Positions 4,084 through 19,756 of a stretch of DNA of 51,507 nucleotides are shown piece after piece. Source of the DNA: a virus; IMG/VR virus record IMGVR_UViG_3300021962_000153, positions 1 to 51,507 of that record. One strand, given 5' to 3'. Numbering within the stretch: position 1 is the first letter of the stretch; every line of letters begins with the position of its first letter. The notes beneath the pieces were generated by a model. It had not been told where the DNA came from, did not search any database, and saw only the letters and a list, made by a program, of their open reading frames with translations. The position numbers and the translations under genes were made by a program.

Positions 4084-5744
4084 GAATTAAGAAGATTGAA
4101 TGGAGAAACTTCTCCTCTTACGGTAACAGAAAACAAGAAATCGAATTTGAAGACGAAGCTTGTCTTTATCAAGTTGTTGGAGAAAACGGTGCAGGAAAAT
4201 CTTCCATCTCTCAAGTTATTACGTTTGGACTTTATGGGAAATTGGAAGGTAAAAAACTTAAAGATATCCCAAATAGAATTAACGGCAATGCTTGGGTGAA
4301 AATAACTCTAGATTCCAATGGTTCAGAAATTGTAGTTGAGAGAGGACTAGAACCAAATTTATTTCGACTCTACATCAATGGGGTTGAATATGATCAGGCT
4401 GGAGTTAGATCAGTTCAAGATTATCTATCAGAAGACATTCTAGGAATTCCATACTATGTGTTTAACAACACGATCTCCCTTTCAATTAATGATTTTAAGT
4501 CTTTTATCAAAATGTCCTCACAGGACAAAAGAAGCATCATAGACAAGATCTTTGGATTCCACGTTCTTAACCAAATGAGGGATCTTCTTAAGGAAGAAAA
4601 TAGAAAGATCAGAGAGTCTATGGAAAATTTAGGGGGAAGACTTTCTTCTGTTGAGTCTACGATCCAAAGTTCCTTAAATGAGATGGAGAACCTTGCCAAC
4701 CAGATTGAGGAGGAATCCTCATCTAAGAAGGAAGAACTTCAGAAGTCTCTAGAAACTTTTGAGGGACTACAAGTTCTTCATAATCAGAAGACGGATGAGT
4801 TTCGAGAGATTGAAAATGAACTCAATTCGGAAATCACTAACACCCAAAGACTTGTTATTGAATCTAGAACTAAACTTCAGGAAGTTCAAAAGAAGATTAA
4901 ACTCTATGAACTGGACCAATGCCCAACTTGTCAGACCTCTCTAGATTCTGAATTTCACCACTGTATTAAAGACGGTCTAATTGCAGATCAATCTTCTGTC
5001 TCTCGACAGCTGGAGGAGTCAAACACCCTAATGTCAGATCTAAAACAGAAGGAGAGGGACTTGTCTGCAACCAAGAGAGACATCATGGATAAGGGTAAGA
5101 AAATTGAAATGAAGATAGGTGAAATTAGAAGGGACCTCAAGTCTCTAAACGAGTCTTCTAATGATAAGCAGCTTCAGTCTTTACAGAGAATTGTAGACAA
5201 TCTTCAAGGAGAAAGAGAAAAAATGGAAATGGAATCTTTCAAGAATCAAGAGAAGAATAACTGGCTTAGAACTCTAGACGAAATTTTAGGGGAGAAAGGG
5301 GTTAAACAAATGGCAATTAAAACTATCCTTCCATCTCTCAATTCTGAGATCCTGGAACTTCTTGGGAAGATGCACTTGGACTATCAAGTAATCTTTGACG
5401 AGGAATTTAATGCTACAATCTACCACATGGGGGTAGAAATTCCAACTCAAACTTTAAGTACAGGGGAAATGAAAAAAGTCGACTTTGTGGTTCTGATAGC
5501 TATCATGAAGCTAATGAAGATGAAGTTCAGTAGCATCAACCTCCTCTTCTTAGACGAGCTATTTAGCTCAGTGGATCCCGATGGGGTTCACTCCATTCTA
5601 AGAATTTTAAGATCTGTGTGTAAAGAACTAGGGTTGAACATCTTTGTTATAAACCACGCTCCAATGCCACACGAGATCTTCGACTGGAAGTTAGAGGTTG
5701 CTAAAGCAAACAATTTCTCTTCTATTTCGATAGACAAATTCTAA
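4080..5744 (+). CDS. 46: gp46-like recombination endonuclease subunit (Rad50/SbcC ATPase)
   Basis: SMC-like ATPase partner of gp47. 554 residues (T4 gp46 has 560). Walker A 'GENGAGKS' is at 34-41. Two coiled-coil arms (about 170-270 and 300-400) flank a zinc-hook 'CPTC' at 281-284. The ABC signature 'LSTGEMKK' is near 459, Walker B 'LLFLDELF' near 489, and the D-loop 'SSVDPDG' follows. The switch histidine lies in 'FVINHAP'. All elements needed for an active Rad50-type ATPase are present. Overlaps gp47 by four bases. A late-promoter-like box follows 14 bases after its stop. Confidence 0.95.
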   Translation: MRIKKIEWRNFSSYGNRKQEIEFEDEACLYQVVGENGAGKSSISQVITFGLYGKLEGKKLKDIPNRINGNAWVKITLDSNGSEIVVERGLEPNLFRLYINGVEYDQAGVRSVQDYLSEDILGIPYYVFNNTISLSINDFKSFIKMSSQDKRSIIDKIFGFHVLNQMRDLLKEENRKIRESMENLGGRLSSVESTIQSSLNEMENLANQIEEESSSKKEELQKSLETFEGLQVLHNQKTDEFREIENELNSEITNTQRLVIESRTKLQEVQKKIKLYELDQCPTCQTSLDSEFHHCIKDGLIADQSSVSRQLEESNTLMSDLKQKERDLSATKRDIMDKGKKIEMKIGEIRRDLKSLNESSNDKQLQSLQRIVDNLQGEREKMEMESFKNQEKNNWLRTLDEILGEKGVKQMAIKTILPSLNSEILELLGKMHLDYQVIFDEEFNATIYHMGVEIPTQTLSTGEMKKVDFVVLIAIMKLMKMKFSSINLLFLDELFSSVDPDGVHSILRILRSVCKELGLNIFVINHAPMPHEIFDWKLEVAKANNFSSISIDKF

Positions 5745-5758
5745 CTTCTTTCCATCCA

Positions 5759-5767
5759 GATATATAG
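5759..5767 (+). promoter_or_regulatory. Late-promoter-like box GATATATAG
   Basis: GATATATAG between gp46 and the PKD-domain gene, 19 bases before the TTG start at 5787. The same box and the same spacing occur before the genes at 7463 and 19798. It resembles the T4 late -10 element TATAAATA. Function is inferred from recurrence and position. Confidence 0.6.
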
Positions 5768-5786
5768 TGGAAATAAGTCTGGAACA

Positions 5787-6659
5787 TTGAAGCCACTATA
5801 TAGCAGAAATCAAAATTTACAAGTAACTAAGTCCGATCTGAAGAAGAAAGGACTTACTGCTGTTCAAGCTACAATGGTTGAACCCAACACCCAAGGTAAA
5901 GGTCTTCTCGGAATTGGTTATTTGAAACCACTTCCTGTAGTTGCTACTGAATATGTCCCGGAAACCAACTCTAAAGGAAACCCGGTCTACGCTCAGACTT
6001 CAGTTCAGACCTACTCAATTTTCTTTGCCCAGTACGAGAACACTTATATTCCAGCAGGAGATGAAAAACTCTATTCTTTTGTTGTAGTTAGAACTTTAGG
6101 ACCAATTACTTCTTCTGATTGTGCAACTCAACTTGGAATGAAACAGAATAGTGTTTACGGTCTTACCCAAACCGAATACGAGAATAACTCTTTCCAGCAC
6201 CCAGTTTATACAACAATGGAGAACACTCCATTGTATTTTAGATATGCAGAAGTTCCTGTTATAGTTCAAACTATTCCAGGAAGGCTCGATAATGTTCCAA
6301 TAGGGGCTCCGAATTTTCCACTTACCCCCTCCGGAGTTCAAACTCAAAAAGGAATGCTTCCTATGCCTCCTTATCCAAATTTCTCCACTTATTTTGGACA
6401 GACTGGGGGGACTGCAATTTCATTGGGAGGAACTGTCGGATTTTTGGATCTTTCCGTTCGAACCCCAACCACAGTACAACCAACATCTTGGTCTTGGAAC
6501 TTTGGAGGAACTGGAGCATGTGCAGGTGCAACTGGAGCAACAGCTCAAAATCCCCTAGTCTCTTTTGGAGCAACTGGTTCTTATACCGTTACACTAACTG
6601 CAACTAATGCAAACGGGTCATCTAGCATCACTAAAACAAACTTTGTAATTGTATCATAA
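5787..6659 (+). CDS. PKD-domain virion protein
   Basis: 290 residues. The first 200 residues are an unrecognised beta-rich domain. The last 90 form a PKD/Ig-like fold: 'SWSWNFGGTG' is the PKD 'W.FGDG' strand, and 'SFGATGSYTVTLTATNANGSSSITK' (split here across residues 258-285) is the closing hairpin. PKD and Ig-like domains commonly decorate phage capsids, necks and tails and bind glycans or surfaces. The start is a TTG. I accept it because it lies 19 bases after a GATATATAG box, the same spacing as two other late genes; the next in-frame ATG is 28 codons later. It is followed immediately by the gp15-like gene, so a virion role is likely. Confidence 0.75.
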   Translation: MKPLYSRNQNLQVTKSDLKKKGLTAVQATMVEPNTQGKGLLGIGYLKPLPVVATEYVPETNSKGNPVYAQTSVQTYSIFFAQYENTYIPAGDEKLYSFVVVRTLGPITSSDCATQLGMKQNSVYGLTQTEYENNSFQHPVYTTMENTPLYFRYAEVPVIVQTIPGRLDNVPIGAPNFPLTPSGVQTQKGMLPMPPYPNFSTYFGQTGGTAISLGGTVGFLDLSVRTPTTVQPTSWSWNFGGTGACAGATGATAQNPLVSFGATGSYTVTLTATNANGSSSITKTNFVIVS

Positions 6660-6660
6660 T

Positions 6661-7410
6661 ATGTCAGGATTTTTAGAAAAATATAACGTTGATGAGGTAT
6701 TCTTAAGAGGAATAATCGTTGGTCTGCTGAGGAATTTAAACGAGAGGGTTACATATACTCAGATCAATCAACAACAGCAAATTCTCCAGGTCTACATCCC
6801 ATTCTTTTACTCGATGTCAGGGGACGAGACTTTCCTTCAGGACTTTTACCTTGACTATTTAGACTGCGATGGACAGTCCCCATTTGCAGAGGGGAACTAT
6901 GATATTATTCCCCGAGGAATTGTTACACTAACTGGAGTTAATATTGAGACTGCATCTCTAACTAGCGGATTTGTTAGAGCAACATATAACGTGGAGGATG
7001 TCCAGGGCCAGATGAAAGCATATTCTGCATACACAACTTCTATTCCGCTCTCGATGACTTTCGATGTTAAGCTAAGGGCAGATACACTTTTAGATACTTT
7101 TAAAATATTTCAGGCAGTAATCCAAGTTTTCTATAAGGTTTTCAGCTTCAGTGTCGAATTTGGAGGGATGAGAGTTCCAGTTCAAGTTGGATTTCCCGAG
7201 CAATATCAAAATGATAAGCAATTAGAGTTTAGCTACCAAAACACCCAAAAATGGATAGAAACCACATTTAGTGTTGCAGTTGAAACTTACTATCCTCAAA
7301 AAGATCTCGAGACGGAAAGATTTAGAGGAAATTTAATGCAGGCTGGAATTAGATTAAAGATATCGACAGACGAACAGACAAATTTGCCGGGTAATTCTAG
7401 TTTATTTTAG
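6661..7410 (+). CDS. 15: gp15-like tail sheath stabilizer / tail completion protein
   Basis: 249 residues from ATG 6661, one base after the preceding stop (an in-frame TTG 12 bases earlier is less likely). T4 gp15 (272 aa) forms the ring that caps the tail tube and sheath and joins the neck. The resemblance is in layout: N-terminal 'LRGIIVGLLRNLNERVTY' with 'VYIPFFYSM', a central 'IIPRGIVTLTGVNIE' strand, then 'SIPLSMTFDVKLRADTLLDTFKIF' (split at 124-147) and a closing 'WIETTFSVAVETYYP'. These parallel the gp15 segments for pre-tail ring contacts. Similarity is weak by eye; another neck or tail-terminator protein is the main alternative. Confidence 0.6.
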   Translation: MSGFLEKYNVDEVFLRGIIVGLLRNLNERVTYTQINQQQQILQVYIPFFYSMSGDETFLQDFYLDYLDCDGQSPFAEGNYDIIPRGIVTLTGVNIETASLTSGFVRATYNVEDVQGQMKAYSAYTTSIPLSMTFDVKLRADTLLDTFKIFQAVIQVFYKVFSFSVEFGGMRVPVQVGFPEQYQNDKQLEFSYQNTQKWIETTFSVAVETYYPQKDLETERFRGNLMQAGIRLKISTDEQTNLPGNSSLF

Positions 7411-7434
7411 TCCTGGATTTTTCTTGAAAGATTG

Positions 7435-7443
7435 AATATATAG
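7435..7443 (+). promoter_or_regulatory. Late-promoter-like box AATATATAG
   Basis: Lies in the 52-base gap before the gene at 7463, 19 bases from its ATG. The surrounding 'AAAGATTGAATATATAGA' is nearly repeated at 38505-38523, before another gene. Late-promoter role inferred. Confidence 0.55.
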
Positions 7444-7462
7444 AAAAATACTGAATTGTATT

Positions 7463-7777
7463 ATGGCTAATAATTTTCCAAATAACCCAATATTAGAACC
7501 GGGACTCTCTGTTAGGATCATTGATGGATCCAGCAGCCAGACTTCTGACACCCTCTATTTTATTGGAACCGAAAATAACTATGTCAAGAAGTCCGCAAGA
7601 ACTGAGACTAGAAATTATTCGACTTTTGGAAATTTTTGGACTAAGCAGATCTCAGTGGAAAATAATTTTAGAGACATCTTGGATGGAGGAACATCGGAAG
7701 ACGGAACTGCTCAGTTCTATGGCCCTATCATCGGGGGAGAATTTCCAACTCAGACAAGATTACTAAATCAATTGTAA
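7463..7777 (+). CDS. Small hypothetical virion-region protein
   Basis: 104 residues, not recognised. Short, beta-rich and Asn/Thr/Ser-rich, with 'LEPGLSVRIIDGSSS' near the N terminus and 'FRDILDGGTSEDGTAQFYGP' in the second half. The composition resembles small phage fibre or decoration proteins. It is preceded by a late-promoter-like box, lies two bases before the next fibre-like gene, and probably shares its transcript. No membrane segment or catalytic motif. Confidence 0.65.
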   Translation: MANNFPNNPILEPGLSVRIIDGSSSQTSDTLYFIGTENNYVKKSARTETRNYSTFGNFWTKQISVENNFRDILDGGTSEDGTAQFYGPIIGGEFPTQTRLLNQL

Positions 7778-7779
7778 AA

Positions 7780-8109
7780 ATGGCATATAGAATACAAATT
7801 AGAAGAGACACATCGTCCAACTGGACTTCAAATAATCCTATCCTTCTGCAAGGAGAATTTGGTTACGAGCTAAATACGGGATATGCAAAGATCGGAGACG
7901 GACAGACTCCTTGGATTAACTTAGAATATTTTGGGGGAACTGGACCCACTGGACCGGTAGGTCCAACCGGAACTTATTTAGTTACTGACATCCCGCCAGG
8001 ATCTTCAGGAGCCACTGGAGCAACTGGGCAATTGGCTCTCGACTCAGACTGGCTTTATGTTTGTGTTGGAACAGACACTTGGAAGAGAACTATTCTCACC
8101 GGATGGTAA
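7780..8109 (+). CDS. Short fibre-like protein with Mtd-N-like opening and collagen-like repeats
   Basis: 109 residues. The N-terminal 50 residues ('YRIQIRRDTSSNWTSNNP', then 'GEFGYELNTGYAKIGDGQTPW') match the common phage-fibre module found at the start of major tropism determinant and many tail-fibre proteins, where it attaches or trimerises the fibre. Two short G-x-T/collagen-like runs follow ('GPTGPVGPTG' and 'GATGATG'), then a small C-terminal strand 'WLYVCVGTDTWKRT'. Full-length fibres of this type are usually much longer, so this may be an adaptor, whisker or decoration trimer. A strong terminator follows directly. Confidence 0.72.
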   Translation: MAYRIQIRRDTSSNWTSNNPILLQGEFGYELNTGYAKIGDGQTPWINLEYFGGTGPTGPVGPTGTYLVTDIPPGSSGATGATGQLALDSDWLYVCVGTDTWKRTILTGW

Positions 8110-8132
8110 AATGAATCGTCAAAAAATATTTT

Positions 8133-8159
8133 AAAAAGCTCAGAAATCTGAGCTTTTTT
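8133..8159 (+). terminator. Rho-independent terminator
   Basis: Perfect inverted repeat: AAAAAGCTCAGA at 8133-8144 pairs with TCTGAGCTTTTT at 8147-8158, ending in a T run. It lies 24 bases after the fibre-like gene and closes the 5.8-8.1 kb structural block before the glycan island. Confidence 0.88.
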
Positions 8160-8182
8160 GTTGAAACTATCTACCGATTTTT

Positions 8183-8193
8183 CTATATGAATA
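8183..8193 (+). promoter_or_regulatory. Weak promoter-like box CTATATGAATA
   Basis: An A/T-rich element between the terminator and the ATG at 8213, 19 bases upstream of it. It departs from the GATATATA(A/G) form, so it may be a weaker or different promoter class. It would drive the gene at 8213 and possibly the glycan island, since no other promoter-like box is seen before the island genes. Confidence 0.35.
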
Positions 8194-8212
8194 AAGATAA
8201 AAAAGTATTCAT

Positions 8213-8491
8213 ATGTCAGATCAGATAAAAATTTCACAGGAAGAATTAAACTCTCTACTAGATCTTAGAGAAAGAATTAGGACCAACGTCGAGTCTATAG
8301 GAAGACTTAACATCAAAAGACATTTTACTCAGTTAGATTTAGATCAGATTCTCGGGGATCTAGATCAAGCTTACTCGGTTTCCGAAGATCTAAGCATGGA
8401 AGAAACTAGAGTAGTCCAGGAGATTACATCCAAATATGGTGAGGGAGATTTGGACTTTGGTACCGGAATATACACTCCTAAACAGAAGTAA
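8213..8491 (+). CDS. Small hypothetical helical protein
   Basis: 92 residues, not recognised. Strongly helical: 'ISQEELNSLLDLRERIRTNVESIGRLN' spans residues 7-33 and is likely a coiled coil, followed by 'LDLDQILGDLDQAY' and a short acidic tail. It is the first gene after the terminator at 8133-8159 and lies eight bases before the large glycosyltransferase. It could be a small chaperone or regulator, but nothing specific supports this. Confidence 0.7.
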   Translation: MSDQIKISQEELNSLLDLRERIRTNVESIGRLNIKRHFTQLDLDQILGDLDQAYSVSEDLSMEETRVVQEITSKYGEGDLDFGTGIYTPKQK

Positions 8492-8499
8492 TTTTCCCT

Positions 8500-10809
8500 A
8501 TGAAGAATAGGATTAAAATTTATGCACATGGTTCTTATATTGGAACTACCGGGTACAATAATCACACCCGGGATTTCTTCAGAGAACTTTCAAAGTATTC
8601 GGAAATTAAAGTTAGAAATTTTACCGTAGGCAATTCATGGAATGGACTGAATAGCACTCCCCACGATGGAGAACCTTATTTAAACGAGGTTGATAAATCT
8701 TTGTTGTACCAACAAAGACTGTGGGTTGCAGATGGCAAAATGGAGGATTTTAAGATTTATGAATCCCCCGAAAAAGAATTTAGACCAGACTTTAATATTG
8801 TGTTAAATGAGACTAATCATCATCTCTATTATGATAAGTATATTGGTCCAAAGATTGCATATAACGTATGGGAGTCAACAAGGCAGCCTGATGATTTTTT
8901 TAACCAGCTATTGAAATTTGATGAGATTTGGGTTCCGAGTAAATGGCAAAGAGAATGTACTATTGAACAAGGTGCCGACCCAGATAAAGTTAAAGTTGTC
9001 CCCGAAGGTGTGGATGTGCATACATTTTACCCGGAAAAGGTTGAACCGCTTGAAGAATATAGAGACGATAGATTTAAATTTCTCCTTATGGGTCGTTGGG
9101 ACTATAGAAAATCGACTAAAGAAATTATTGAAACCTTTCTTAGTACTTTCTCCCCTGAAGAACCTATTGACTTGATTGTGTCTATTGATAACATGTGGGG
9201 TGAAGAAATGGATGGATTTAAGACGACCGAAGAACGTTTACAAAATTATGGATTAATCGACCCCCGGATTAAAATTATACATTTTCCATCGAGGGAGGAT
9301 TATATCAAGTATCTTAAGACCGGCCACGTATTTGTTTCCTGTGCAAGATCTGAAGGGTGGAATTTACCACTTATCGAAGCTATGGCTTGCGGAACCCCTT
9401 CTATTTATTCCGAGTGCTGCGCTCAGATGGAGTTTGCGGAAGGAAAGGGAATACCTGTAAAAATTCTGGGAGAAAAACCTGCAAATAAAAATAACTATGG
9501 AAGGTACACTATGAGTGAACTTCCAGGAAATTATTACGAGCCTGATTTTGGACATCTATCTGAAGTCATGAGAGATGTATACGAGAATTATGATTCCTAT
9601 AAAGAAAAGGCGGTCATTGAAAGTTCTGATTTAAGGGACAAATTTTCATGGGAGGTTGTTGCAAAAATAGGACAGGAAAAAGTTAATGCCTTTATGGAAA
9701 AAATCAGCTCCGATGAATACAATAAAAACTCAGATACAAATTCAATCAACGTGAGTTATTTCGAGGGTCCAAAAGTTGAGATTCTTGGGGATTATGACGC
9801 CGCATATTTAATTGAATTTGTCGATTCAAAAACAGATAAAGTTCTTCATTCTCAAACTATAACTAATAATATGTGGTGTTCTTGTTCAAAGAAGTATTAC
9901 ATTGATTGGATTATAAAAGTTAACGGGAAAGTTATTGACACGTTCACCCTTAAAAACAAAAGGGTTTTGATCTCTTTTGAGTCTAAATCGATTGGGGACA
10001 CCTTAGCATGGGCACCTTATGTTGTTGATTTCTCGAAGAAGAATGGATGTAAGGTAATCTTATCGACATTTCATAACAACTGGTTTGAAGGAGTCAAAGA
10101 TTACTCGGATATTGAATTTATCAGCCCAGGACAAAAGACTCATTGTGATTCAATTTACAGGGTTGGATGGTTTCGTTCGGATAAAAATAGATGGGATAAG
10201 TTTGATTCTTACCCCTATCCTTTGAACTCTCAACCATTACAAAAAACAGCAAGTGATATTTTAGGATTGGATTTTGTAGAAAGAAATTACGGAATTAAAT
10301 TCAATCCAAAGGATAAACCATATCAAAACAAATACATTGTGATTGCCCCCGAATCAACGGCAGGATGTAAAGAGTGGACTTACGAAGGATGGCAAATATT
10401 AACAAACATGTTGGTGGAAGAGGGATATGAAGTAGTATGTCTAACCCATAAACCATATACCCTTAAAAATGCAAAATGTGTCCATGGTAAATCCCTGGAA
10501 GACTCTTTCAATATTCTATTCCATGCAGAATATCTCATAGGATTAAGTTCCGGTTTAGCTTGGATCAATTGGTCCCTAGGAAAGCATACGGTTATGATCA
10601 GTGGATTCACCGCAAAAGATCATGAGTTTGGAACAAACATCACAAGAATTCAAAATGAACACGCATGCAATTCTTGCTGGGCAAACATTAACTTTATATT
10701 TGATGCAGGAGATTGGGACTGGTGTCCAATTTGGAAAGGAACAGATAAACAACACATCTGTTCAAAATCTATATCCCCACTAACAGTATTTAATGCTTTA
10801 CCAAAATGA
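8500..10809 (+). CDS. Two-domain glycosyltransferase: GT4 domain fused to BAHT-type O-heptosyltransferase
   Basis: 769 residues. Residues 1 to about 400 are a GT-B retaining glycosyltransferase of family 4: 'VVPEGVDVHTFYP', 'FKFLLMGRWDYRKS', and the nucleotide-sugar motif 'SEGWNLPLIEAMACGTP' near 284-300. From about 415 a second enzyme begins with the hallmarks of the bacterial autotransporter heptosyltransferase (BAHT) family: 'VSYFEGPKVEILGDYD', 'NNMWCSCSKKYYIDW', 'ISFESKSIGDTLAWAPY', 'VIAPESTAGCKEW' and 'GLSSGLAWINWSLGK'. Four cysteines near the end, C723, C726, C742 and C754, match the arrangement of the iron-binding finger in TibC-like heptosyltransferases, which transfer heptose from ADP-heptose to Ser residues of autotransporters. 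Overlaps the next gene by four bases. Activity and acceptor are inference. Confidence 0.88.
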   Translation: MKNRIKIYAHGSYIGTTGYNNHTRDFFRELSKYSEIKVRNFTVGNSWNGLNSTPHDGEPYLNEVDKSLLYQQRLWVADGKMEDFKIYESPEKEFRPDFNIVLNETNHHLYYDKYIGPKIAYNVWESTRQPDDFFNQLLKFDEIWVPSKWQRECTIEQGADPDKVKVVPEGVDVHTFYPEKVEPLEEYRDDRFKFLLMGRWDYRKSTKEIIETFLSTFSPEEPIDLIVSIDNMWGEEMDGFKTTEERLQNYGLIDPRIKIIHFPSREDYIKYLKTGHVFVSCARSEGWNLPLIEAMACGTPSIYSECCAQMEFAEGKGIPVKILGEKPANKNNYGRYTMSELPGNYYEPDFGHLSEVMRDVYENYDSYKEKAVIESSDLRDKFSWEVVAKIGQEKVNAFMEKISSDEYNKNSDTNSINVSYFEGPKVEILGDYDAAYLIEFVDSKTDKVLHSQTITNNMWCSCSKKYYIDWIIKVNGKVIDTFTLKNKRVLISFESKSIGDTLAWAPYVVDFSKKNGCKVILSTFHNNWFEGVKDYSDIEFISPGQKTHCDSIYRVGWFRSDKNRWDKFDSYPYPLNSQPLQKTASDILGLDFVERNYGIKFNPKDKPYQNKYIVIAPESTAGCKEWTYEGWQILTNMLVEEGYEVVCLTHKPYTLKNAKCVHGKSLEDSFNILFHAEYLIGLSSGLAWINWSLGKHTVMISGFTAKDHEFGTNITRIQNEHACNSCWANINFIFDAGDWDWCPIWKGTDKQHICSKSISPLTVFNALPK

Positions 10810-11534
10810 TAGACTTAACAAATTTCAATTGGGGTTGGATGGACGAGCCCTCTGACACCTACCATATAATGTCCGATGGTTCACATAAAGGGATGGGACA
10901 ATATCATAAAGACTCGATCATACAGGAAATATTTGTAGATAAGTGCTACGAAAAATTCTTCGAAGTAGAGGAAGGAGATGTTGTTCTCGATATAGGAGCA
11001 AGCGTAGGACCTTTTGCATATTCAGTATTGCATAAAAACCCTAAACAGATATTTTGTTTCGAACCAAGCGAACGGGAGTTTAAAACTCTGGTTAATAACA
11101 CCAAAGGTTACCCGGTAGTACCAATCCCAAAGGGAATTTCTAGTGTAAATTCTATAGTTGGGAATGACCACTTATTTGGGGGTGAAGCCCAAATGGAGTC
11201 AATTACTTTTCAAAAGTTTATCAATCTATACGGGATTGAAAAAATTGATTTTCTAAAAACGGATTGTGAAGGGGGAGAATTTGATATATTTACTTTAGAA
11301 AATCTAGATTGGATTAAATCAAATGTTAAAAAAATTACAGGGGAGTGGCATCTACAACTACAGGGACACAACTACATTGAAAAATTTAGACAGTTCAGGG
11401 ACGGTTTTTTATCCAAATTTCAGAATTACGAAATTTATTCAGTAGATAATATTGACATAAAGTGGGATTTGTGGAATGATCATTTTTTGGAGTATTACCG
11501 ACAGGTTATAATCCACATAGATAATAGAAATTAA
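10806..11534 (+). CDS. FkbM-family SAM-dependent methyltransferase
   Basis: 242 residues. SAM-binding motif I 'VVLDIGASVGPFAYSVL' (about 58-74), acidic loop 'IFCFEPSERE' (about 85) and the FkbM-defining 'IDFLKTDCEGGEFDIF' (about 150-165) are all present. The family mostly O-methylates sugars and natural products, and it is common in glycan loci. Starts with an ATGA overlap on the glycosyltransferase, so it is translationally coupled. Likely acts on a sugar added by neighbouring transferases. A second FkbM-like gene lies at 17734. Confidence 0.88.
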   Translation: MIDLTNFNWGWMDEPSDTYHIMSDGSHKGMGQYHKDSIIQEIFVDKCYEKFFEVEEGDVVLDIGASVGPFAYSVLHKNPKQIFCFEPSEREFKTLVNNTKGYPVVPIPKGISSVNSIVGNDHLFGGEAQMESITFQKFINLYGIEKIDFLKTDCEGGEFDIFTLENLDWIKSNVKKITGEWHLQLQGHNYIEKFRQFRDGFLSKFQNYEIYSVDNIDIKWDLWNDHFLEYYRQVIIHIDNRN

Positions 11535-11546
11535 TATTAAAGATAT

Positions 11547-12191
11547 ATGGCTAACGGAGTTTATCAGATAACAGACGATTTTGAAAAAGAACTTGGAAGA
11601 TACACAGGAGCACCTTATGTTGTCACCCTTGATAACATGAGTAACGCTTTATTCTTGGCGTTGTACTATGAAAAAAATATAGTTAAGTCAATCAAGGGAG
11701 ATAAAATTTCAATCCCGAATAGAACATATCCATCTGTTCCGTGTGAAATTATACATGCTGGTTTAAAAGTAAATTTCATACCCGTTGAAGGTAGAACAAT
11801 AAAAGGAGCGTACCAGCTAATCGGTTCAAATGTTTGGGATTCTGCTTTGTCGTTTACTGCGGACATGTATAGACCAGGTAGTCACATGTGTGTTTCTTTT
11901 ACCGGTCCATATAAACATTTTAAATTAAGTAAAGGCGGGGCGATTTTGACTGATAGTTTAGATGCTTACCATTGGTTTAAAAGAGCAAGATATAGTGGAA
12001 GACGTGAATGTTCATATCATGATGATAACCTTGATATGTTAGGTTGGAATTTTTATATGATGCCAGAACTTGCAACAAGAGGATTATTACTAATGAATCA
12101 ATTCTATAATCTTGATGGGACTAAGAAACACAACCAAGATTTAGAATTACCATACCCGGATCTATCTCAATTTGATGTATACAAAAAATGA
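11547..12191 (+). CDS. Short DegT/DnrJ/EryC1-type sugar aminotransferase homologue
   Basis: 214 residues against about 370 for the family. It keeps the PLP-fold core: 'LGRYTGAPYVVTLDNMSNAL' (cofactor-binding opening), 'ISIPNRTYPSVPCEIIHAG' (family 'P..T......I...G') and 'SFTGPYKHFKLSKGGAI', where K123 aligns with the PLP-linked lysine. The usual C-terminal domain is largely missing: after the core only about 65 residues remain, including 'ARYSGRRECSYHDD' and 'LGWNFYMMPELAT'. The equivalent of 'GYN.RM.ELQAA' is recognisable in that last stretch. Either a compact enzyme or a pseudo-enzyme. It would transfer an amino group to a keto-sugar, and the NeuD-like acyltransferase next door would then N-acylate it. 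Confidence 0.78.
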   Translation: MANGVYQITDDFEKELGRYTGAPYVVTLDNMSNALFLALYYEKNIVKSIKGDKISIPNRTYPSVPCEIIHAGLKVNFIPVEGRTIKGAYQLIGSNVWDSALSFTADMYRPGSHMCVSFTGPYKHFKLSKGGAILTDSLDAYHWFKRARYSGRRECSYHDDNLDMLGWNFYMMPELATRGLLLMNQFYNLDGTKKHNQDLELPYPDLSQFDVYKK

Positions 12192-12769
12192 AAAAAGCTT
12201 TAGTTGGCTATGGAGGTCACGCCCGTGAGGTTATGGCTCAGATGGGGGTAAAACTTACTTGTTTTGTGGACGATGAGTATGTAGTTGAAGGAACACAACC
12301 ATTATCAAAATTCAATCCGAAAAAATATGTTTTAATGGTTGCAGTTGCTGATTCAAAGGATAGGTTTGATATAATACAAAGATTACCAAAAGAAACAAAG
12401 TATTTTACTTGGATCCATCCAACGGCTTTAATTATGAGTAACGATATTGAAATCGGAGAAGGTAGTTTTATCGGTGCATACTCGATACTAACTTCAAATA
12501 TTAAATTGGGTAAACACGCACTATTGAACAGAGGTAATCACATAGGGCACGATTGCCAGATTGGTGATTTTTTTAGTGCTATGCCGGGTTCTGTTGTTGG
12601 TGGGAATGTATCAATTGGAGATGTTGTTTATATGGGAAGTTGTTCAAATATTAGGGAAAAAATTAAAATTGTGTCCCTTGTTAAGATAGGGATGAATTCA
12701 GCAGTTGTAAAGGACATAACTAGGCCTGGTATCTATGTGGGGGTACCGAGTAAAAAAATTAAGAAATGA
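12188..12769 (+). CDS. NeuD/PglD-like sugar O/N-acyltransferase
   Basis: 193 residues. N-terminal Rossmann-like sugar-nucleotide domain ('KKALVGYGGHAREVMAQM', 'CFVDDEY') followed by a left-handed beta-helix of hexapeptide repeats ('IEIGEGSFIGAYSILTSNIKLGKHALLNRG' over about 91-120), then 'HIGHDCQIGDFFSAMPGSVV' and the cap 'ITRPGIYVGVPSKKI'. The catalytic histidine is probably in 'GNHIGHDC'. This is the PglD/NeuD architecture, which acetylates UDP-amino sugars or sialic acids. ATGA overlap with the DegT-like gene supports an aminotransferase-acyltransferase pair, as in bacillosamine-type pathways. Confidence 0.88.
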   Translation: MKKALVGYGGHAREVMAQMGVKLTCFVDDEYVVEGTQPLSKFNPKKYVLMVAVADSKDRFDIIQRLPKETKYFTWIHPTALIMSNDIEIGEGSFIGAYSILTSNIKLGKHALLNRGNHIGHDCQIGDFFSAMPGSVVGGNVSIGDVVYMGSCSNIREKIKIVSLVKIGMNSAVVKDITRPGIYVGVPSKKIKK

Positions 12770-13761
12770 AGGACTTAATTTTAATTACTACATACTGTCC
12801 CGATGAACATCGAGAAATTATTTTAAGAAATTTAGTAAATTCTCTAACAAGGTTTAAAGATACTTTCGATACTTTAATTGTTAGCCATACCCCCGTTCCT
12901 CTGGACATCCAGAAAAAAGTTAATTATTGCTTTTATGACAGCAAAAACGAAATCTTAACCGACTGGGATCTATTAAATCAGCCCTGGTTTAATCCCAACG
13001 ACGAGAGAAGAATTCAGTCTTCGTTTTTAAGCAGAAAGAACACACACCTGGCCATCTGGAGAATGATGATTATGGGATTTTCGATGGCTAAAAATATGGG
13101 CTATAGCAAAGTTCATCACATCGAGTATGATTGCGAAATCTCTAGTGTTGATGAATTTGTACATAACTCTCAGCTACTTGGTGAGCATAACTCTGTGATT
13201 TATATAGACAGTCAAGATACAGTTGACGACATCTTATTTGGCAGTTTTCAGTCTTATTTTGTCCCTAATATTAATCCTTTTTTGATTATACTAGATGAGG
13301 AAAAAATAAAGGATATGATTCGTAATTCAGAATCGAAATCTCCGGAATTGATGCTACAGAGACTCATAGAACAAATGGGAAAGGTGTACAAAAAATCCAG
13401 GATTAGTTTAAACACAGATTGTAACAAATTTGGAATTGTAGATGGTCAGGTTGGAGTTAAATTCATTCCCTGGGGGGTTCCTTTTTATGATCAATTGGAG
13501 GACACTGTTGGTTTCATAATTTGGAATACCAAAAAAGAAAAAGGGGTTAAGTACAATATCATCATCAATGACGAGAAGGTAGTTAATGTTCCCTTAACTA
13601 TGCTCGATCACTGGAGGATAGTAGACTTAGGTGATATTAAAGATATCAAACGTATATTAGTTATTGAAGACGAAGAAGTTAAAGATAAATTTAGCTTGGA
13701 TACAGAAGAAGAAATAGAAATTTTTAAAAAAATCAGTTTTAGACACAAAGAATCTTTTTAG
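12766..13761 (+). CDS. Glycosyltransferase-like protein, family copy 1
   Basis: 331 residues. Clearly related along its length to the product at 14309-15283 and more distantly to 16770-17741. Shared segments are '[15 protein letters not shown]', '[15 protein letters not shown]', '[19 protein letters not shown]' and '[10 protein letters not shown]', the last a DxD-like acidic motif after a beta strand, typical of GT-A enzymes. A C-terminal beta domain (about 230-331) is also shared. The GT-A assignment is inference from the acidic motif and the neighbours, because no full GT family signature is visible. Overlaps the preceding gene by four bases and lies two bases before the next. Confidence 0.72.
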
Positions 13762-13763
13762 TC

Positions 13764-14312
13764 ATGAGTATAGAAAACATACATTTGTGGCACTCCGATA
13801 GAGGAACATATTTCGATAGAAACGTTAATATAATATCATGGAGCGACCAATATCACGTCAGAATAGGTAAGTACAACTCAATAGGTAGAGATTGTAATTT
13901 CTTTTTGCATGCAAACCATAGACCCGATTGGATCACAACTTCATCCCAGCTTTGGGGACCAGTAAATCATGAGATTGCTCAGATGCACATGGATATGGGA
14001 CACCCATCTTGTAAAGGTGATATAATTATCGAAAACGACGTTTGGATTGGGGCGACCGCCACAATAATGTCGGGGGTTAAAATTTCAAATGGTGCAGTTG
14101 TTGCTGCGGGCTCTGTTGTTACCAAAGACGTTCCCCCTTATGCAATTGTTGCAGGTAATCCTGCTAAAATTGTTAAGTATAGATTCACTGAAGAACAAAT
14201 TGAAAAACTTTTATCAATTGCTTGGTGGAACTGGGAGGAACAAAAAATTAGAGATAATGCGATGAATATGTGGTCCGACAATATCGACAATTTTATAGAA
14301 AAATTCTTATGA
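13764..14312 (+). CDS. CatB/Maa-type hexapeptide acetyltransferase
   Basis: 182 residues. Left-handed beta-helix acyltransferase: '[25 protein letters not shown]' (with the family catalytic-type histidine, about 34-58), '[18 protein letters not shown]', '[21 protein letters not shown]' and 'IVKYRF'. This combination defines the xenobiotic/sugar O-acetyltransferase group that uses acetyl-CoA; the loop '[12 protein letters not shown]' is also typical. Lies between two related glycosyltransferase-like genes, so it probably acetylates a sugar of the same glycan. ATGA overlap with the next gene. Confidence 0.88.
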
Positions 14313-15283
14313 AAGATTTAATTCTAATATCTAATTATTCCGATACTTTAGATAAACAAGAAACTTTAAGAAATCTTGTCATTCAAATTAATTTACAAAA
14401 AGAATATTTTGATATACTAATTGTATCACATACTACTATCCCCCAAGATATTCAGGAAAAATGTCATTATAGTATATACGATTATAAAAATGAACTTATT
14501 TATGACTGGGAATTTAGAGACTTTCAATATTTTTATCCTGGCAATAGTGGCACTATACAATCCATATTTACTGGTGAGTATAACAAACAGTTGGCTATTT
14601 GGAGGATGATTATATTAGGTAATTCTTTTGCCAAAGGATTGGGGTATAATAAAATCCATCATATTGAATTTGATTCATCTATTAATAATTTTTCGGAACT
14701 AATTGAAAATTCTAAATTGTTGGACACATACGATAGTATTTTTTATGTTAACGATAAAGATGTGTTAAATGATGTTTTATTTGGAAGTTATCAAGCATAT
14801 AAATTGGATAGTCTCCCAAAAGATTTATTAACATTAAATGAGTCTTATTTAAAGAGTCAAATACTCTATTCTACTAATAAAACTCCCGAGGTCATGCTTC
14901 AACAACTTTTAAAACTTTCTGAAAATTATTATGTAAAATCTAAGTCCGATTTATTACAAGATAATGATTTTGGTTTAACTCATGGCAAATTGGCCTCTAC
15001 CAACACAGCTTGGTGTTTACCTTTTTACAACAGAGATTTAGATAAATTAGAATTTGTTGTGTGGAATATGGAACACACAAATGATGTCATTAATGTTAGA
15101 TTAATTTATAATGATAACCAATTAATCAATATTGGAGACATCCCAAAAAATAATTGGAAAATAATTACAATCGATGATTACAAAAATGCTGAGTCTTTAA
15201 CTGTTATTTTAAATAATAAAATAAAAAGTGAATTCTCCTTTAAAGAGGATAAAGAAAAATTCAAAAAATTTAGTTTCAAATGA
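14309..15283 (+). CDS. Glycosyltransferase-like protein, family copy 2
   Basis: 324 residues from ATG 14309, which overlaps the acetyltransferase stop. An upstream in-frame GTG at 14270 is inside that gene and is rejected, because the paralogue at 12766 also begins 'MKDLILI'. It shares '[15 protein letters not shown]', '[19 protein letters not shown]', '[10 protein letters not shown]' and '[11 protein letters not shown]' with copy 1. The acidic motif is changed from YDCE to FDSS, so metal binding may be weaker or use other residues. Base composition is noticeably more A/T-rich than in the structural genes. Confidence 0.72.
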
Positions 15284-16773
15284 AGATAAAAAAAATAATA
15301 TTCGCAAGTGATAACTCCTACTTTTTAGAGTTTTGGCCAATTCAAGCTAAATTGTGTCGAGAATTATTTGGTTGGGAACCGGTTCTTTTTAAAATTTCTG
15401 ATGAAGATAGTGAGTTCTATAACGATGGAAACGGATTAGTAAAAAATATCAAATCTGTCCAAGGAATTCATACTGCAATTCAAGCTTGCACAGTCAGAAT
15501 GTTCGGTACCAAATATTTTCCTGAGGATGTTTGTGTATGTGGGGATTTAGATATGTTGATGATAAATAAAAACTATTTTATTGAGCAATTAAAACACTAC
15601 CCGGACGACTCTTTCGTTATAATGTCGAGTGACGCTTATGATTTTAGCAGGCCCGAATCAAACGAATTATTCGTAAAAGAACCACTACCTTTTAAACAAG
15701 AGATGTACGGGTATGTGTATAATGTGGCCAAAGGTAAAACTTTCACAAAAATATTAAATTCTGATTGTTCTTTTGATGAATTTATGAATAGACACTCAAA
15801 TCATAAAGACGGCTATAAAATTATGTGGTTGATTGACGAGTTTTATTTTTCGGATTGTGTAAATAATAATCAACACGATGTAGAGATTATTAAATTAAAA
15901 CGAGGTCATTATACAGAATTTTTAACGCCAAGAAGAATAGAAAGGCATAACTTTCCTGTGGAATTAAAATGGGATGGTGAAATAGAGAACCAAAAAAAAT
16001 ATGGAGTATATGATATAGAAAAATTAAAACAAGGGTTTTATATTGATGTTAACTGTGTTAGACCATATAGTGATTATAAAGAAGCTATTGATGAGGTTGT
16101 AAATATTATTCTTGGAAATCAAGACAATAGTGATATGTATGGCCTTGGCTTAAAATACAATACAGATAAAGTGTTGGAACATAGATATGATAGAATTTAT
16201 GAAAAGTTTTTAGAACCACTAAGGAATAAAAAAATAAAATTATTTGAGATTGGTTCTGGTAGTGAAGCGGCCTCTTTTAGAATGTGGATTGAATATTTTA
16301 AAAATGGTATGATTTACGCTATGGATATCTCCGAAGAAAGAAATCAAGAAAGAGGTATTATGTATAAAGGTGACCAAAGTAAGATTGAAGATTTGGAAAG
16401 AATGATTAATTTGATAGGTCAGTGCGATGTTATTATTGATGATGGAAGTCACCAGCCACAACACCAAATAGAATCATTCAATTATCTATTTGAAAATATG
16501 CTAAAAGAAGGCGGGGTTTATATTATTGAAGACATTGAATGTAACTACTGGAATCCCAAAGAAACAATATATGGATATGAGATTGGTAATTACAATATTA
16601 TTGATTATTTTTCTTCGGTTCCACACAAAATAAACTCCGATTTTAGTAGTGTTAAAAATCGCCAAAATATTGAATCGATCACACATTACAAGAATTGTAT
16701 TATTGTAACTAAAAAAAGTGTTGAAGAAATCTTAGGAGTTAAAAAAGATTATAGATTTAAATTTATGTTATGA
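15280..16773 (+). CDS. Bifunctional GT-A-like glycosyltransferase plus class I methyltransferase
   Basis: 497 residues, two domains. Residues 1-260 look like a GT-A transferase: 'IIFASDNSYFLEFWPIQAKL', then 'DVCVCGDLDMLMINKNYF' with a DxD (about 89-91) and the acceptor-side 'EMYGYVYNVAKG'. Residues from about 285 are a SAM methyltransferase: 'GLGLKYNTDKVLEHRYDRIY', 'KLFEIGSGSEAASFRMW' (motif I, about 320), 'DVIIDDGSHQPQHQIESF' (about 383) and 'GGVYIIEDIECNYW'. This methyltransferase type is common in sugar and antibiotic loci. The fusion suggests that adding a sugar and methylating it are linked. Overlaps both neighbours by four bases. Confidence 0.8.
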   Translation: MKIKKIIFASDNSYFLEFWPIQAKLCRELFGWEPVLFKISDEDSEFYNDGNGLVKNIKSVQGIHTAIQACTVRMFGTKYFPEDVCVCGDLDMLMINKNYFIEQLKHYPDDSFVIMSSDAYDFSRPESNELFVKEPLPFKQEMYGYVYNVAKGKTFTKILNSDCSFDEFMNRHSNHKDGYKIMWLIDEFYFSDCVNNNQHDVEIIKLKRGHYTEFLTPRRIERHNFPVELKWDGEIENQKKYGVYDIEKLKQGFYIDVNCVRPYSDYKEAIDEVVNIILGNQDNSDMYGLGLKYNTDKVLEHRYDRIYEKFLEPLRNKKIKLFEIGSGSEAASFRMWIEYFKNGMIYAMDISEERNQERGIMYKGDQSKIEDLERMINLIGQCDVIIDDGSHQPQHQIESFNYLFENMLKEGGVYIIEDIECNYWNPKETIYGYEIGNYNIIDYFSSVPHKINSDFSSVKNRQNIESITHYKNCIIVTKKSVEEILGVKKDYRFKFML

Positions 16774-17741
16774 AAAAATTAGCCCTAATTAGCACTTTTT
16801 GTAACACAGCAGAAAAACAAAAAATTTTAAGGGAAAACATTATTCGGTTAAAACAATTAGGACTTGATGTTATGTGCCTCGGCCCTAATTTTATAGAAAT
16901 CCCTCAGGAAGTTATCAGATTGTGTGACTATTTTTATTTCACTAAAGAAAATCCTCTACTAATTTGGCCAGAGAGAGCTTTCACTTTTTGGAAGACAATT
17001 TCTTACGAGGAAGGATTTATAAAAATGCATAGAAACATTGCAGATTACGGATGGGCAGCCTTAAACCAAGTTAAGAGATTAAGTCAAATAGCTTTAAACT
17101 ATGACTATGATTTATTTTATCACGTAATTTATGATTTAGAAATTGACTCTGAGATTGAAAGAGAAATTCTTTCTAATGAATGTAATTTGATACACCCAAG
17201 AATTAATCCTAACGACCCTAATGAATTATGGGAAGCCACTTTACATCTTATGATTTTTGATAGAAAAAGGATGGAGGATATTTTACCTATGATCGACAGA
17301 AAAACATACTTGGATAGTAATGGGGTTGCTGAAGGACAAGCCTTAAAATGGGCCAAAGAAATACCTCTCAAAATATCTCCTCACCCCATTAAAGACAAAA
17401 TATATTATTGGGAAGATTTCGATTTTTTCGATTATTCTAAGTGCCCCGATTATAAATTGTTTATCAATAAAAATGAACCCTGTGAAACTTGGAAGGGTAG
17501 TCCTCCAGTAATGGAAATCTTAGACTCTAAGTTACGGTTATTTTTCTATGACATAAAAGTATCTAAAGGGGTTGATGTTTTTTGTGACGGGTTAAGCTAT
17601 AATTTTTTATTGAACTCTAATAAATTTATAGAGATAGAAAAAGACTCTCTAAGTGTTCAACGATTAATAATAGACGGTATTGATTATTCTAGTGAACACG
17701 AAGAAATTATTAGAAATATAAGTTACTTTGAAAATGTTTAA
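16770..17741 (+). CDS. Glycosyltransferase-like protein, family copy 3 (divergent)
   Basis: 323 residues. The N terminus 'MKKLALISTFCNTAEKQKIL' follows the pattern of the copies at 12766 and 14309. The acidic motif is 'DLFYHVIYDLEID' (about 112-124). It differs in the rest, with 'LLIWPERAFTFWKTISYE', 'IHPRINPNDPNELWEATL' and 'VAEGQALKWAKEIPL', the last two typical of GT-A acceptor and catalytic regions. Probably a distinct transferase of the same superfamily. Overlaps the gene before it by four bases and the one after by eight. Confidence 0.68.
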   Translation: MKKLALISTFCNTAEKQKILRENIIRLKQLGLDVMCLGPNFIEIPQEVIRLCDYFYFTKENPLLIWPERAFTFWKTISYEEGFIKMHRNIADYGWAALNQVKRLSQIALNYDYDLFYHVIYDLEIDSEIEREILSNECNLIHPRINPNDPNELWEATLHLMIFDRKRMEDILPMIDRKTYLDSNGVAEGQALKWAKEIPLKISPHPIKDKIYYWEDFDFFDYSKCPDYKLFINKNEPCETWKGSPPVMEILDSKLRLFFYDIKVSKGVDVFCDGLSYNFLLNSNKFIEIEKDSLSVQRLIIDGIDYSSEHEEIIRNISYFENV

Positions 17742-18558
17742 GATAAATTATAGTACGGACAGCATCAGAATAGAAACCCATAATCTAAATGGGATTTTTA
17801 GCAGTGAACAACTACCCCTACACTTTGATTTTGTGAGGCAAGTTAATGGAAAGAAAATATGGGATACGAGATTAAATTCCAATAGCTGGGCAACATTTCC
17901 CGATACTGAGATGATTGATGTGATTGTTAAAGACAATTGTGGGATCCACCTTTTTACCCACCGATGGAATGTTGTTACTAACGGAACCTTTCCGTATCAA
18001 AAACTGTGGAATTATTGTAAGATAAACCCAAATTCAAAGGGTGTTGTTGTAGGAACACATAGCGGTGAATTTGGTGAATGGGTTCCTGTAGCTCTAGATA
18101 AATTAGCCCATATTACTCTAGTAGAAGCTAGCGAAAAACAATTTACTGAGCTTTCCCAAAACTATGCCAGTTATGATAATTTAACTTTTGTTAATGAATT
18201 GGTAACGGATAATGGAGAAGACACTATTTTCTATGAAGGAGGAAAGGGTTATACCAATTCCGTAGAAAAAACAGTAATTGAGTCGTGGGAAACTGAAGAG
18301 ATAACCTCCACACTAAGAAGCTCTATTAAATTCTCTGATCTAATCACGCAGGATACAAAGTGGGTCCATCTAGACGTTGAAGGTATAGACGATAAACTTC
18401 TGTATAGTCTCTCTGATGATCAATATTCTCATTTGGATTTAATTGTCTTTGAATATAATAATTTGTCAACGGAGAAAAGAGAAGAAATAAATAATTTTGT
18501 AATCTCTAAAGGGTTTATTAGTTTTAGAGAAAATGGAATCTGTATTGCACATAAATAA
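17734..18558 (+). CDS. FkbM-like methyltransferase with N-terminal extension
   Basis: 274 residues from ATG 17734 (an in-frame TTG two codons upstream is less likely). The first 100 residues are a beta-rich extension. The methyltransferase follows: 'GVVVGTHSGEFGEWVPVAL' (motif I), 'ITLVEASEKQFTELSQNY' (motif II acidic Glu) and 'TKWVHLDVEGIDDKLLYSL' (about 207-225), which is the FkbM 'K.D.EG.E...L' element with D and E kept but the lysine replaced. The rest matches the FkbM fold. Likely methylates a sugar product of this island. Confidence 0.8.
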   Translation: MFKINYSTDSIRIETHNLNGIFSSEQLPLHFDFVRQVNGKKIWDTRLNSNSWATFPDTEMIDVIVKDNCGIHLFTHRWNVVTNGTFPYQKLWNYCKINPNSKGVVVGTHSGEFGEWVPVALDKLAHITLVEASEKQFTELSQNYASYDNLTFVNELVTDNGEDTIFYEGGKGYTNSVEKTVIESWETEEITSTLRSSIKFSDLITQDTKWVHLDVEGIDDKLLYSLSDDQYSHLDLIVFEYNNLSTEKREEINNFVISKGFISFRENGICIAHK

Positions 18559-18569
18559 AATGAAATGAA

Positions 18570-19370
18570 ATGAAAAAAATAATAATAACCGGAACTAAAG
18601 GATTCATTGGGTCTAATCTTAAAAGAGAGCTAGATTCCAAGTATGATATCATAGAAATTAACGAGGATATTTTCCAAACTGTTAATTGGAGGGACGAAGT
18701 CTCTAAGCACTTTTGGCTAGATATTTCCGCAGTCTTCCACGTCGGTGCGTGTTCCAATACTCTAGAAACCGACGTTAACTACATGATGTTGGTCAACTAC
18801 GAGTTCACCAAGCACCTCTCAAATCTCTGTTCTTCTGAGAAAGTCCCCCTGGTATACTCTTCGTCAGCTGCTAATTACGGAATAAATGATGAATATCCCT
18901 CTAATTTATATGGATGGAGTAAATATGCAGCAGAAGACTATGTGATCTCCAATGGAGGAATTGCACTTAGATATTTTAATGTTTATGGCCCGGGTGAAGA
19001 AAATAAAGGCAAGATGGCATCGGTTGCTTATCAGATGTCCGTATTACACTCTGAAGGAAAGAATATAAATTTATTTCCGAAGAACCCTAGAAGAGACTTC
19101 GTTTATGTGAAAGATATAGTCTCTTCCAATATTCATGCCATGGAGAACTATAGTCTTCTAGAGGGAAGATATTATGAAGTTGGGTCTGGGGTGGCAAGAC
19201 CCTTTGAAGACGTAATGGAGATTATGGGGATTCCGTATGGATATCTAGACCAGTCCGTAATCCCTCAGGGATACCAATTTTATACCTGTAGCAATCCAAA
19301 GAAATGGATGTCCGGTTGGACTTCCCGATGGTCTTTGGAAGAAGGACTAAAAGACTATTTTAATCTATGA
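18570..19370 (+). CDS. hldD-like: NAD(P)-dependent epimerase, HldD-like (ADP-heptose 6-epimerase type)
   Basis: 266 residues, short-chain dehydrogenase fold. NAD(P)-binding 'GTKGFIGSNL' (8-17), 'AVFHVGACSNTLETD' (close to the HldD hallmark 'F..GACS.T...D'), catalytic Ser in 'VYSSSAANYG', Y114 and K118 in 'YGWSKYAAEDY', then 'LRYFNVYGPGEENKGKMASV' and 'RRDFVYVKDIV'. HldD is about 310 residues, so this is slightly short at the C terminus. HldD converts ADP-D-glycero- to ADP-L-glycero-D-manno-heptose. Its presence with a heptosyltransferase-type gene in the same island is notable. A different nucleotide-sugar epimerase is possible. Confidence 0.85.
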   Translation: MKKIIITGTKGFIGSNLKRELDSKYDIIEINEDIFQTVNWRDEVSKHFWLDISAVFHVGACSNTLETDVNYMMLVNYEFTKHLSNLCSSEKVPLVYSSSAANYGINDEYPSNLYGWSKYAAEDYVISNGGIALRYFNVYGPGEENKGKMASVAYQMSVLHSEGKNINLFPKNPRRDFVYVKDIVSSNIHAMENYSLLEGRYYEVGSGVARPFEDVMEIMGIPYGYLDQSVIPQGYQFYTCSNPKKWMSGWTSRWSLEEGLKDYFNL

Positions 19371-19756
19371 TCCACAACTTTAAAATATTTATTGATAGAA
19401 GTCCAATCCATGGCTGGGGGGTTTTTGCTAAAGAGAACATAAAAGAAGGGGAAGTCTTTGAGGAGTGTCCTGTGCTTCCCCTCCCGATTCAGAAGGGTGA
19501 ATCTTCCTCTCTTTTAATCGACTATAGATTTAATTGGCCACAGGGAACAGAGTGGGAGGAGCAGGTTATTTCTTGGGGATATGGTTCTTTATATAATCAT
19601 TCAGACCCTGCAAATGCATATTGGGTTTCTGATCTTGACAGAAGAACTTTCAAATTTATCGCAAATAGAGACATTATTGCCGGGGAGGAAATCTTCATTT
19701 GGTACGGAGATGAGAGTTACTGGAACGATGGAAGGAACCACACCTCTGTGGTGTAG
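19367..19756 (+). CDS. SET-domain protein-lysine methyltransferase
   Basis: 129 residues, a bare SET domain. Key elements: 'SPIHGWGVFAKENIKEGEVF' (the G-x-G/'GWG.FA' opening), 'YGSLYNHSDPANAYW' (the NHS motif that contacts SAM) and 'FKFIANRDIIAGEEIFIWYG' (catalytic Tyr region with 'GEE...YG'). There are no pre-SET or post-SET cysteines, as in bacterial and viral compact SET proteins. It would methylate lysine on a host or virion protein. ATGA overlap with the epimerase; last gene of the island, followed by a hairpin and a late-promoter-like box. Confidence 0.88.
   Translation: MIHNFKIFIDRSPIHGWGVFAKENIKEGEVFEECPVLPLPIQKGESSSLLIDYRFNWPQGTEWEEQVISWGYGSLYNHSDPANAYWVSDLDRRTFKFIANRDIIAGEEIFIWYGDESYWNDGRNHTSVV

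Follow-up and report, generated by a model that had tools for sequence, protein, structure and literature searches.

A phage GT4–TibC-like glycosyltransferase fusion whose relatives accompany Ser/Thr-rich Gly-X-Y fibres

Why would a phage carry an enzyme resembling TibC, and on which substrate would it act? The question is raised by a gene at 8500–10809 of a 51,507-nt stretch of viral DNA (IMG/VR record IMGVR_UViG_3300021962_000153, positions 1 to 51,507; hereafter the window). A sequence-only reading had described its product as a GT4 enzyme fused to an iron-finger O-heptosyltransferase, unusual for a phage, with possible targets among virion or host surface proteins. The gene is composed as follows:

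8500–10809, plus strand: GT4–BAHT fusion protein, 769 aa in one unbroken ORF
8500–9700, plus strand: GT4 half, about residues 1–400 (PF00534, phrog_2170, EX7E at E285/E293, Foldseek)
9742–10800, plus strand: TibC/AAH-like (BAHT-type) O-glycosyltransferase domain, residues 415–766 (TIGR04414; structural match to TibC)
10666–10761, plus strand: putative iron-finger cysteines C723, C726, C742 and C754 (alignment to TibC C339, C342, C358 and C370)

Two glycosyltransferase domains and their phage relatives

Both halves of the protein were assigned to known families, and the proposed fusion was borne out. The N-terminal half matches Pfam Glycos_transf_1 (PF00534) at 6.8e-11 (42.4 bits, cut-off 26.4) and phrog_2170 at 2.1e-32, Foldseek matches it to the GT4 structures 3oy2, MshA and HepE, and its EX7E pair shows no variation among 40 aligned full-length homologues. 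The C-terminal half matches TIGR04414 (hepto_Aah_TibC, NCBIfam) at 1.2e-67 with 228.6 bits, above the curated cut-off of 200, a modest score given the 484–650 bits of bacterial members. It is related to TibC (PDB 4rap) by phmmer at 3.5e-36, with 26–27% identity. AlphaFold modelled this domain alone with a pLDDT of 88 and a pTM of 0.86, and TibC was the top Foldseek match of the model (TM 0.82/0.80, E 5e-28, covering β-barrel and GT-B), the WaaC-type LPS enzymes being far less similar in fold (TM ~0.5).

The four cysteines of the domain are the counterparts of TibC C339, C342, C358 and C370, which are the four iron ligands of that enzyme (PMC4358343). The spacings of 3 and 16 given in the earlier reading for TibC are correct, the third (12) is equal too, and all four cysteines are present in 69/69 non-identical viral homologues. 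This putative iron-finger segment ranks with the regions that AlphaFold placed least confidently (pLDDT about 62–75). TibC D110, T226, K230 and W305 correspond to D500, T620, K624 and W688 of the window protein, each kept in 69/69. The domain therefore has in common with the TibC/AAH enzymes (TIGR04414; PDB 4rap, 4rb4) its whole-domain fold, the cysteine spacing, the catalytic Asp, the Thr/Lys phosphate contacts and Trp305. Two members of the fusion family (L210, on contig G421, and L085) apparently lack the four finger cysteines and retain the catalytic residues.

The enzyme is not the oddity it had been taken for, since it belongs to a large and diverse phage family. A peptide-pattern scan of IMG/VR yielded at least 103 viral loci with relatives of the GT4–BAHT protein, 80 of which were analysed. 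All kept ORFs uncut by a contig end are fusions, nearly all of 753–798 aa, except L018 (439 aa, possibly frame-broken). A second scan, begun from a standalone relative, gave at least 209 matches to standalone phage BAHT; the 80 that were kept are 350–449 aa long and closely followed by a tail sheath gene. Among genome contigs a profile scan found six relatives, a first peptide scan of the same contigs having found none. At least two of the six (L083 and L084) are filed as bacterial MAGs, although the BAHT gene adjoins a phage tail sheath and the contigs are probably phage. Two UniProt phage proteins of 924–985 aa, A0A6J5SVC1 ('Glycosyltransferase Aah/TibC') and A0A7S9XE01, carry the same domain at 35–37% identity; their assignment is a database annotation, and we found no proposal of a partner or function for them, nor any paper discussing TibC-like phage proteins, in the open-licence literature. 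Two loci (L078:9065-9946 and L080:9065-9949) have a second, short BAHT-like ORF of ~294 aa directly after GT4–BAHT, which lacks the N-terminal barrel.

In an unrooted tree of the domain with thin bacterial sampling, 10/10 bacterial sequences group as a single clade (100/100), surrounded by phage sequences of diverse kinds. The closest relative of this clade is the BAHT of a viral contig picked for its Ser/Thr-rich fibre. It is conceivable, though we would not favour it, that TibC-like enzymes are primarily a phage invention for Ser/Thr-rich Gly-X-Y fibres, that bacterial BAHT is a later adhesin branch and that the GT4-fused branch switched to a non-ADP sugar.

Lost TibC features, the donor sugar and the window's cassette

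The fusion differs from the TibC/AAH enzymes in its GT4 half and also in features on which their activity depends. Arg286 of TibC contacts adenine and is the basis of the enzyme's ADP specificity, and its mutation to Ala abolishes or largely reduces activity (PMC4358343). The window gene has S669 at this position, which is V, S, I, T, L or A across the 69/69 viral homologues aligned; standalone phage members retain Arg286 in 54/54 cases, as does every bacterial sequence aligned. The hydrophobic tip of the β-hairpin thumb of TibC (F265/V266), required for the active dodecamer, is a gap in 69/69 viral homologues of the same alignment. Because Arg286 and the thumb tip are both lost, the branch that includes the window gene probably uses another donor and assembles differently. 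Furthermore, TIGR04415, the strand-loop-strand repeat of autotransporter targets, is absent from the window and from the other viral records searched, which are fragments, and present in 6/8 bacterial BAHT genomes, our positive control; a partner encoded by the host is conceivable. A phage-made ADP-heptose donor was considered and found unsupported, since the heptose-1-P adenylyltransferase domain TIGR02199 is absent from the window and gives sub-cut-off matches only in relatives.

These results weigh against a classical autotransporter-type O-heptosyltransferase that passes heptose from ADP-heptose to a strand-loop-strand protein of host or phage. We regard this as improbable, even with a TIGR04414 equivalog match above cut-off and with the cysteines and the residues equivalent to D110, T226, K230 and W305 in place. 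Heptose, named earlier as the transferred sugar, is not upheld, and the label 'heptosyltransferase' is doubtful for this gene; judging by its residues, the sugar would not be, or not only be, that of ADP-heptose. As Arg286, the thumb tip and the partner repeat are all missing, despite the homology and the HMM match, the protein should rather be named a TibC-like phage protein O-glycosyltransferase.

The genes around the enzyme in the window are:

7780–8109, plus strand: mini Gly-X-Y structural protein, 109 aa (PF18454 Mtd_N 1.7e-14; PHROG tail-fibre matches)
8213–8491, plus strand: small protein (BLAST 1.6e-13 to the ~83-aa gene of relatives between GT4–BAHT and tail sheath)
10806–11534, plus strand: FkbM-type methyltransferase (TIGR01444 4e-12; 4-bp overlap with GT4–BAHT)
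11547–12191, plus strand: short DegT/DnrJ-type aminotransferase homologue, sugar cassette (PF01041 2.1e-11)
12188–12769, plus strand: NeuD/PglD-type acetyltransferase homologue, sugar cassette (TIGR03570 1.1e-42, 146 bits, under the cut-off of 160.8)
13764–14312, plus strand: hexapeptide-repeat O-acetyltransferase of the Vat/CatB superfamily, sugar cassette (below the families' cut-offs)
18570–19370, plus strand: NAD-dependent sugar epimerase/dehydratase, sugar cassette (PF01370 9.4e-27)

The methyltransferase, the DegT homologue, the PglD-like acetyltransferase and the epimerase/dehydratase would suit a modified nucleotide sugar different from ADP-heptose. DNA is a frequent substrate of phage glycosyltransferases, and the GT4 half could in principle modify the phage DNA with the BAHT half as an accessory. 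We consider this highly improbable, as no DNA-base-modification genes were recognised in the cassette and the context of the relatives consists of tail and fibre genes. At the cassette end, a SET-domain protein (19367–19756, PF00856 1.1e-15) is a possible phage protein lysine methyltransferase.

The closest kin of the window is contig G010, which shares the cassette (8500–19753) at 40–92% amino-acid identity gene by gene and in which a Ser/Thr-rich fibre gene lies two genes off. Between the window and its relatives the tail sheaths are only ~30% identical, and the cassette has therefore likely been exchanged horizontally between otherwise dissimilar phages; GC is lower at 14–18 kb of the window. 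Portal and sheath are nearest to those of huge phages (462-kb LR756500), the sheath also to that of Flavobacterium phage MaF61, and a Bacteroidota host would be our guess. The sheath (25094–28462) is unusually long at 1122 aa, and two adjacent ORFs (44310–45929 and 45939–47537) both match portal family phrog_213.

The 7780–8109 protein, of tropism-protein type, joins an Mtd_N head, the repeats GPTGPVGPTG and GSSGATGATG and a tail-protein-like C-terminus. It holds the sole Gly-X-Y run of five or more triplets in the 51.5-kb window and is the only candidate fibre-type acceptor there; neither a Pfam Collagen match nor a COLGALT-like or lysyl-hydroxylase-like enzyme was found in the window. Since this fragment holds a mini Gly-X-Y protein only, the acceptor has to be deduced from relatives, and a Ser/Thr-rich fibre of this phage may lie outside the fragment.

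Pairing of the enzyme with Ser/Thr-rich Gly-X-Y fibres

In the standalone clade, which is independent of the fusions, an upstream Ser/Thr-rich fibre is present in 19/29 loci, against 0/19 of the nearest sheath relatives without BAHT. One of the 19 control relatives (L158) carries a GT4–BAHT elsewhere, and the result is the same without it. Two further contigs, G421 and G422, were rejected as BAHT-free sheath controls, both carrying a GT4–BAHT elsewhere, and the pairing was therefore tested starting from the fibre. A DNA pattern encoding (Gly-[S/T]-[S/T])9 was the sole basis on which contigs (40 kb or longer) were picked, with (Gly-Pro-X)9 contigs and contigs picked by an arbitrary 15-mer as controls. 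Among the matches listed, TIGR04414 was found in 16/28 Ser/Thr-fibre contigs (15 over cut-off), in 0/24 Gly-Pro-X contigs and in 0/18 random contigs (Fisher, 3e-6 in comparison with the Gly-Pro-X contigs, 1e-8 with both control sets), the contigs being fragments, not fully independent, and the controls unmatched for host. Clustering at 50% identity divides the 16 enzymes into 10 groups, 9/10 of the enzymes scanned are GT4–BAHT fusions, and a Ser/Thr-rich fibre lies within ~10 kb of the enzyme in 11/16. BAHT was not seen on the other 12/28, which may be fragments or use another enzyme. Moreover, at ten loci, several of them near-identical, the Ser/Thr-rich fibre is the gene directly upstream of GT4–BAHT, with no other glycosyltransferase nearby. 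The giant fibres on the relatives' contigs measure 2645–3469 aa and comprise 716–1045 triplets with 72–97% S/T.

The enzyme and the fibre are thus paired in many phage lineages. Such co-occurrence can stem from a common host or lineage; even so, that phage genes of this type accompany giant Ser/Thr-rich Gly-X-Y fibres suggests that they glycosylate the phage's own fibre, and a virion protein, one of the two kinds of target first envisaged, is the likely one. We propose, with a probability of roughly 0.6, that the window gene encodes a two-headed O-glycosyltransferase for a phage-encoded Gly-X-Y (collagen-like) tail fibre. The BAHT half would place the first sugar on Ser/Thr of a Gly-Ser/Thr-Ser/Thr repeat by GT-B transfer, with Asp500 as the base by homology and the iron finger keeping the BAHT fold together. 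The GT4 half would then lengthen the glycan, and the products of the adjoining methyltransferase-, acetyltransferase- and aminotransferase-type genes may modify it further. The glycan might serve to stiffen the fibre, to resist proteases or to contact a receptor.

Two other targets have to be weighed against the fibre. The enzyme and its cassette could remodel the host surface by altering LPS, O-antigen or another host glycan, for instance to block superinfection. The cassette at 10806–19370 does resemble surface-glycan genes, and a host-surface role has been proposed for the glycosyltransferase islands of pelagimyophages, T4-like marine phages (PMC7029224). We nevertheless find this unlikely, as BAHT-fold enzymes that have been characterised act as protein O-glycosyltransferases, the window domain is far more distant in structure from the WaaC-type LPS enzymes, and the strong fibre association would be unexpected. 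Alternatively, another virion protein (capsid decoration, sheath or baseplate) could be glycosylated, the link to the fibre being indirect. In favour of this, most relatives have the gene shortly ahead of the tail sheath, and glycosylation of capsid and tail tube is described for mycobacteriophages in work cited in PMC12619734. Sheath relatives without BAHT, however, keep the sheath neighbourhood and lack the upstream Ser/Thr-rich fibres, and the reverse sampling began with the fibre only, which leaves this alternative a rather small chance.

Fibre glycosylation by the phage has partial parallels in known systems. BclA of Bacillus anthracis is a glycosylated collagen-like Gly-X-Y protein. Its sugar chains sit on the Gly-X-Y triplets, as cited in PMC3368898, but other enzymes are involved and the protein belongs to the spore surface, not to a virion. 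Mycobacteriophages likewise have glycans on virion proteins; in the work that PMC12619734 cites, these are on the C-termini of capsid and tail-tube proteins, not on Gly-X-Y fibres. No mycobacteriophage record matched the window protein at E 1e-5. If fibre glycosylation is correct, many aquatic phages would bring their own machinery to O-glycosylate giant Gly-X-Y fibre proteins, and glycosyltransferases of host-recognition islands could be reread as serving fibre armour or receptor mimicry, beyond LPS change alone. They would also be a fresh source of Ser/Thr glycosyltransferases for simple repeat peptides, and the question would arise whether bacterial adhesin glycosylation originated in phages.

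Locus types in the relatives and in isolate Mel-JY01

Where the flanking sequence of relatives suffices, their genes typically run in the order Gly-X-Y fibre or fibres, modification genes, GT4–BAHT, the ~83-aa protein, tail sheath, tail tube and baseplate, and two main locus types can be distinguished. In the S-type, fibres have 57–97% Ser/Thr at X and Y and often a Peptidase_S74 tip, and hydroxylases are absent. In the P-type, the collagen-like fibres are rich in Pro. The P-type phages examined further out also have Ser/Thr-rich fibres (one of 2645 aa in G009, four in G008, one in G015); in some loci a Pro-rich fibre is nearest and a Ser/Thr-rich one more distant; two fragments, G415 and G418, show no Ser/Thr-rich fibre.

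Beside some relatives of the window gene we observed a further fusion (L072:2356-4683, with homologues in L025, L028, L051, L068, L126 and L132), which combines GT4, a COLGALT1-like part (PDB 9u7j, 2e-19) and a procollagen lysyl-hydroxylase part like that of LH3 and mimivirus L230 (6ax6, 1e-28). Collagen-like fibres rich in Pro lie beside it, and each locus that has the lysyl-hydroxylase-like protein encodes a PKHD-type 2OG oxygenase as well. Such a locus is a possible phage cassette for collagen-type hydroxylation and galactosylation, and we found no paper on phage procollagen enzymes in the open-licence literature. LH3/PLOD3, mimivirus L230 and COLGALT1 resemble this neighbouring fusion; they have no homology to the window gene. 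Were the fibre reading true, some of these phages would carry COLGALT/lysyl-hydroxylase-like enzymes of a kind familiar in animals and in mimivirus.

An isolate is also represented among the relatives. Microcystis phage Mel-JY01 (PP395634.1, locus L002) encodes GT4, a middle region and BAHT in one CDS (4750–8430), annotated in its record as methyltransferase FkbM, shortly downstream of an unannotated Ser/Thr-rich Gly-X-Y fibre ORF. This frame (L002:1-3049, plus strand) encodes 1016 aa in a region where the record annotates two genes on the minus strand and a single short one on the plus strand.
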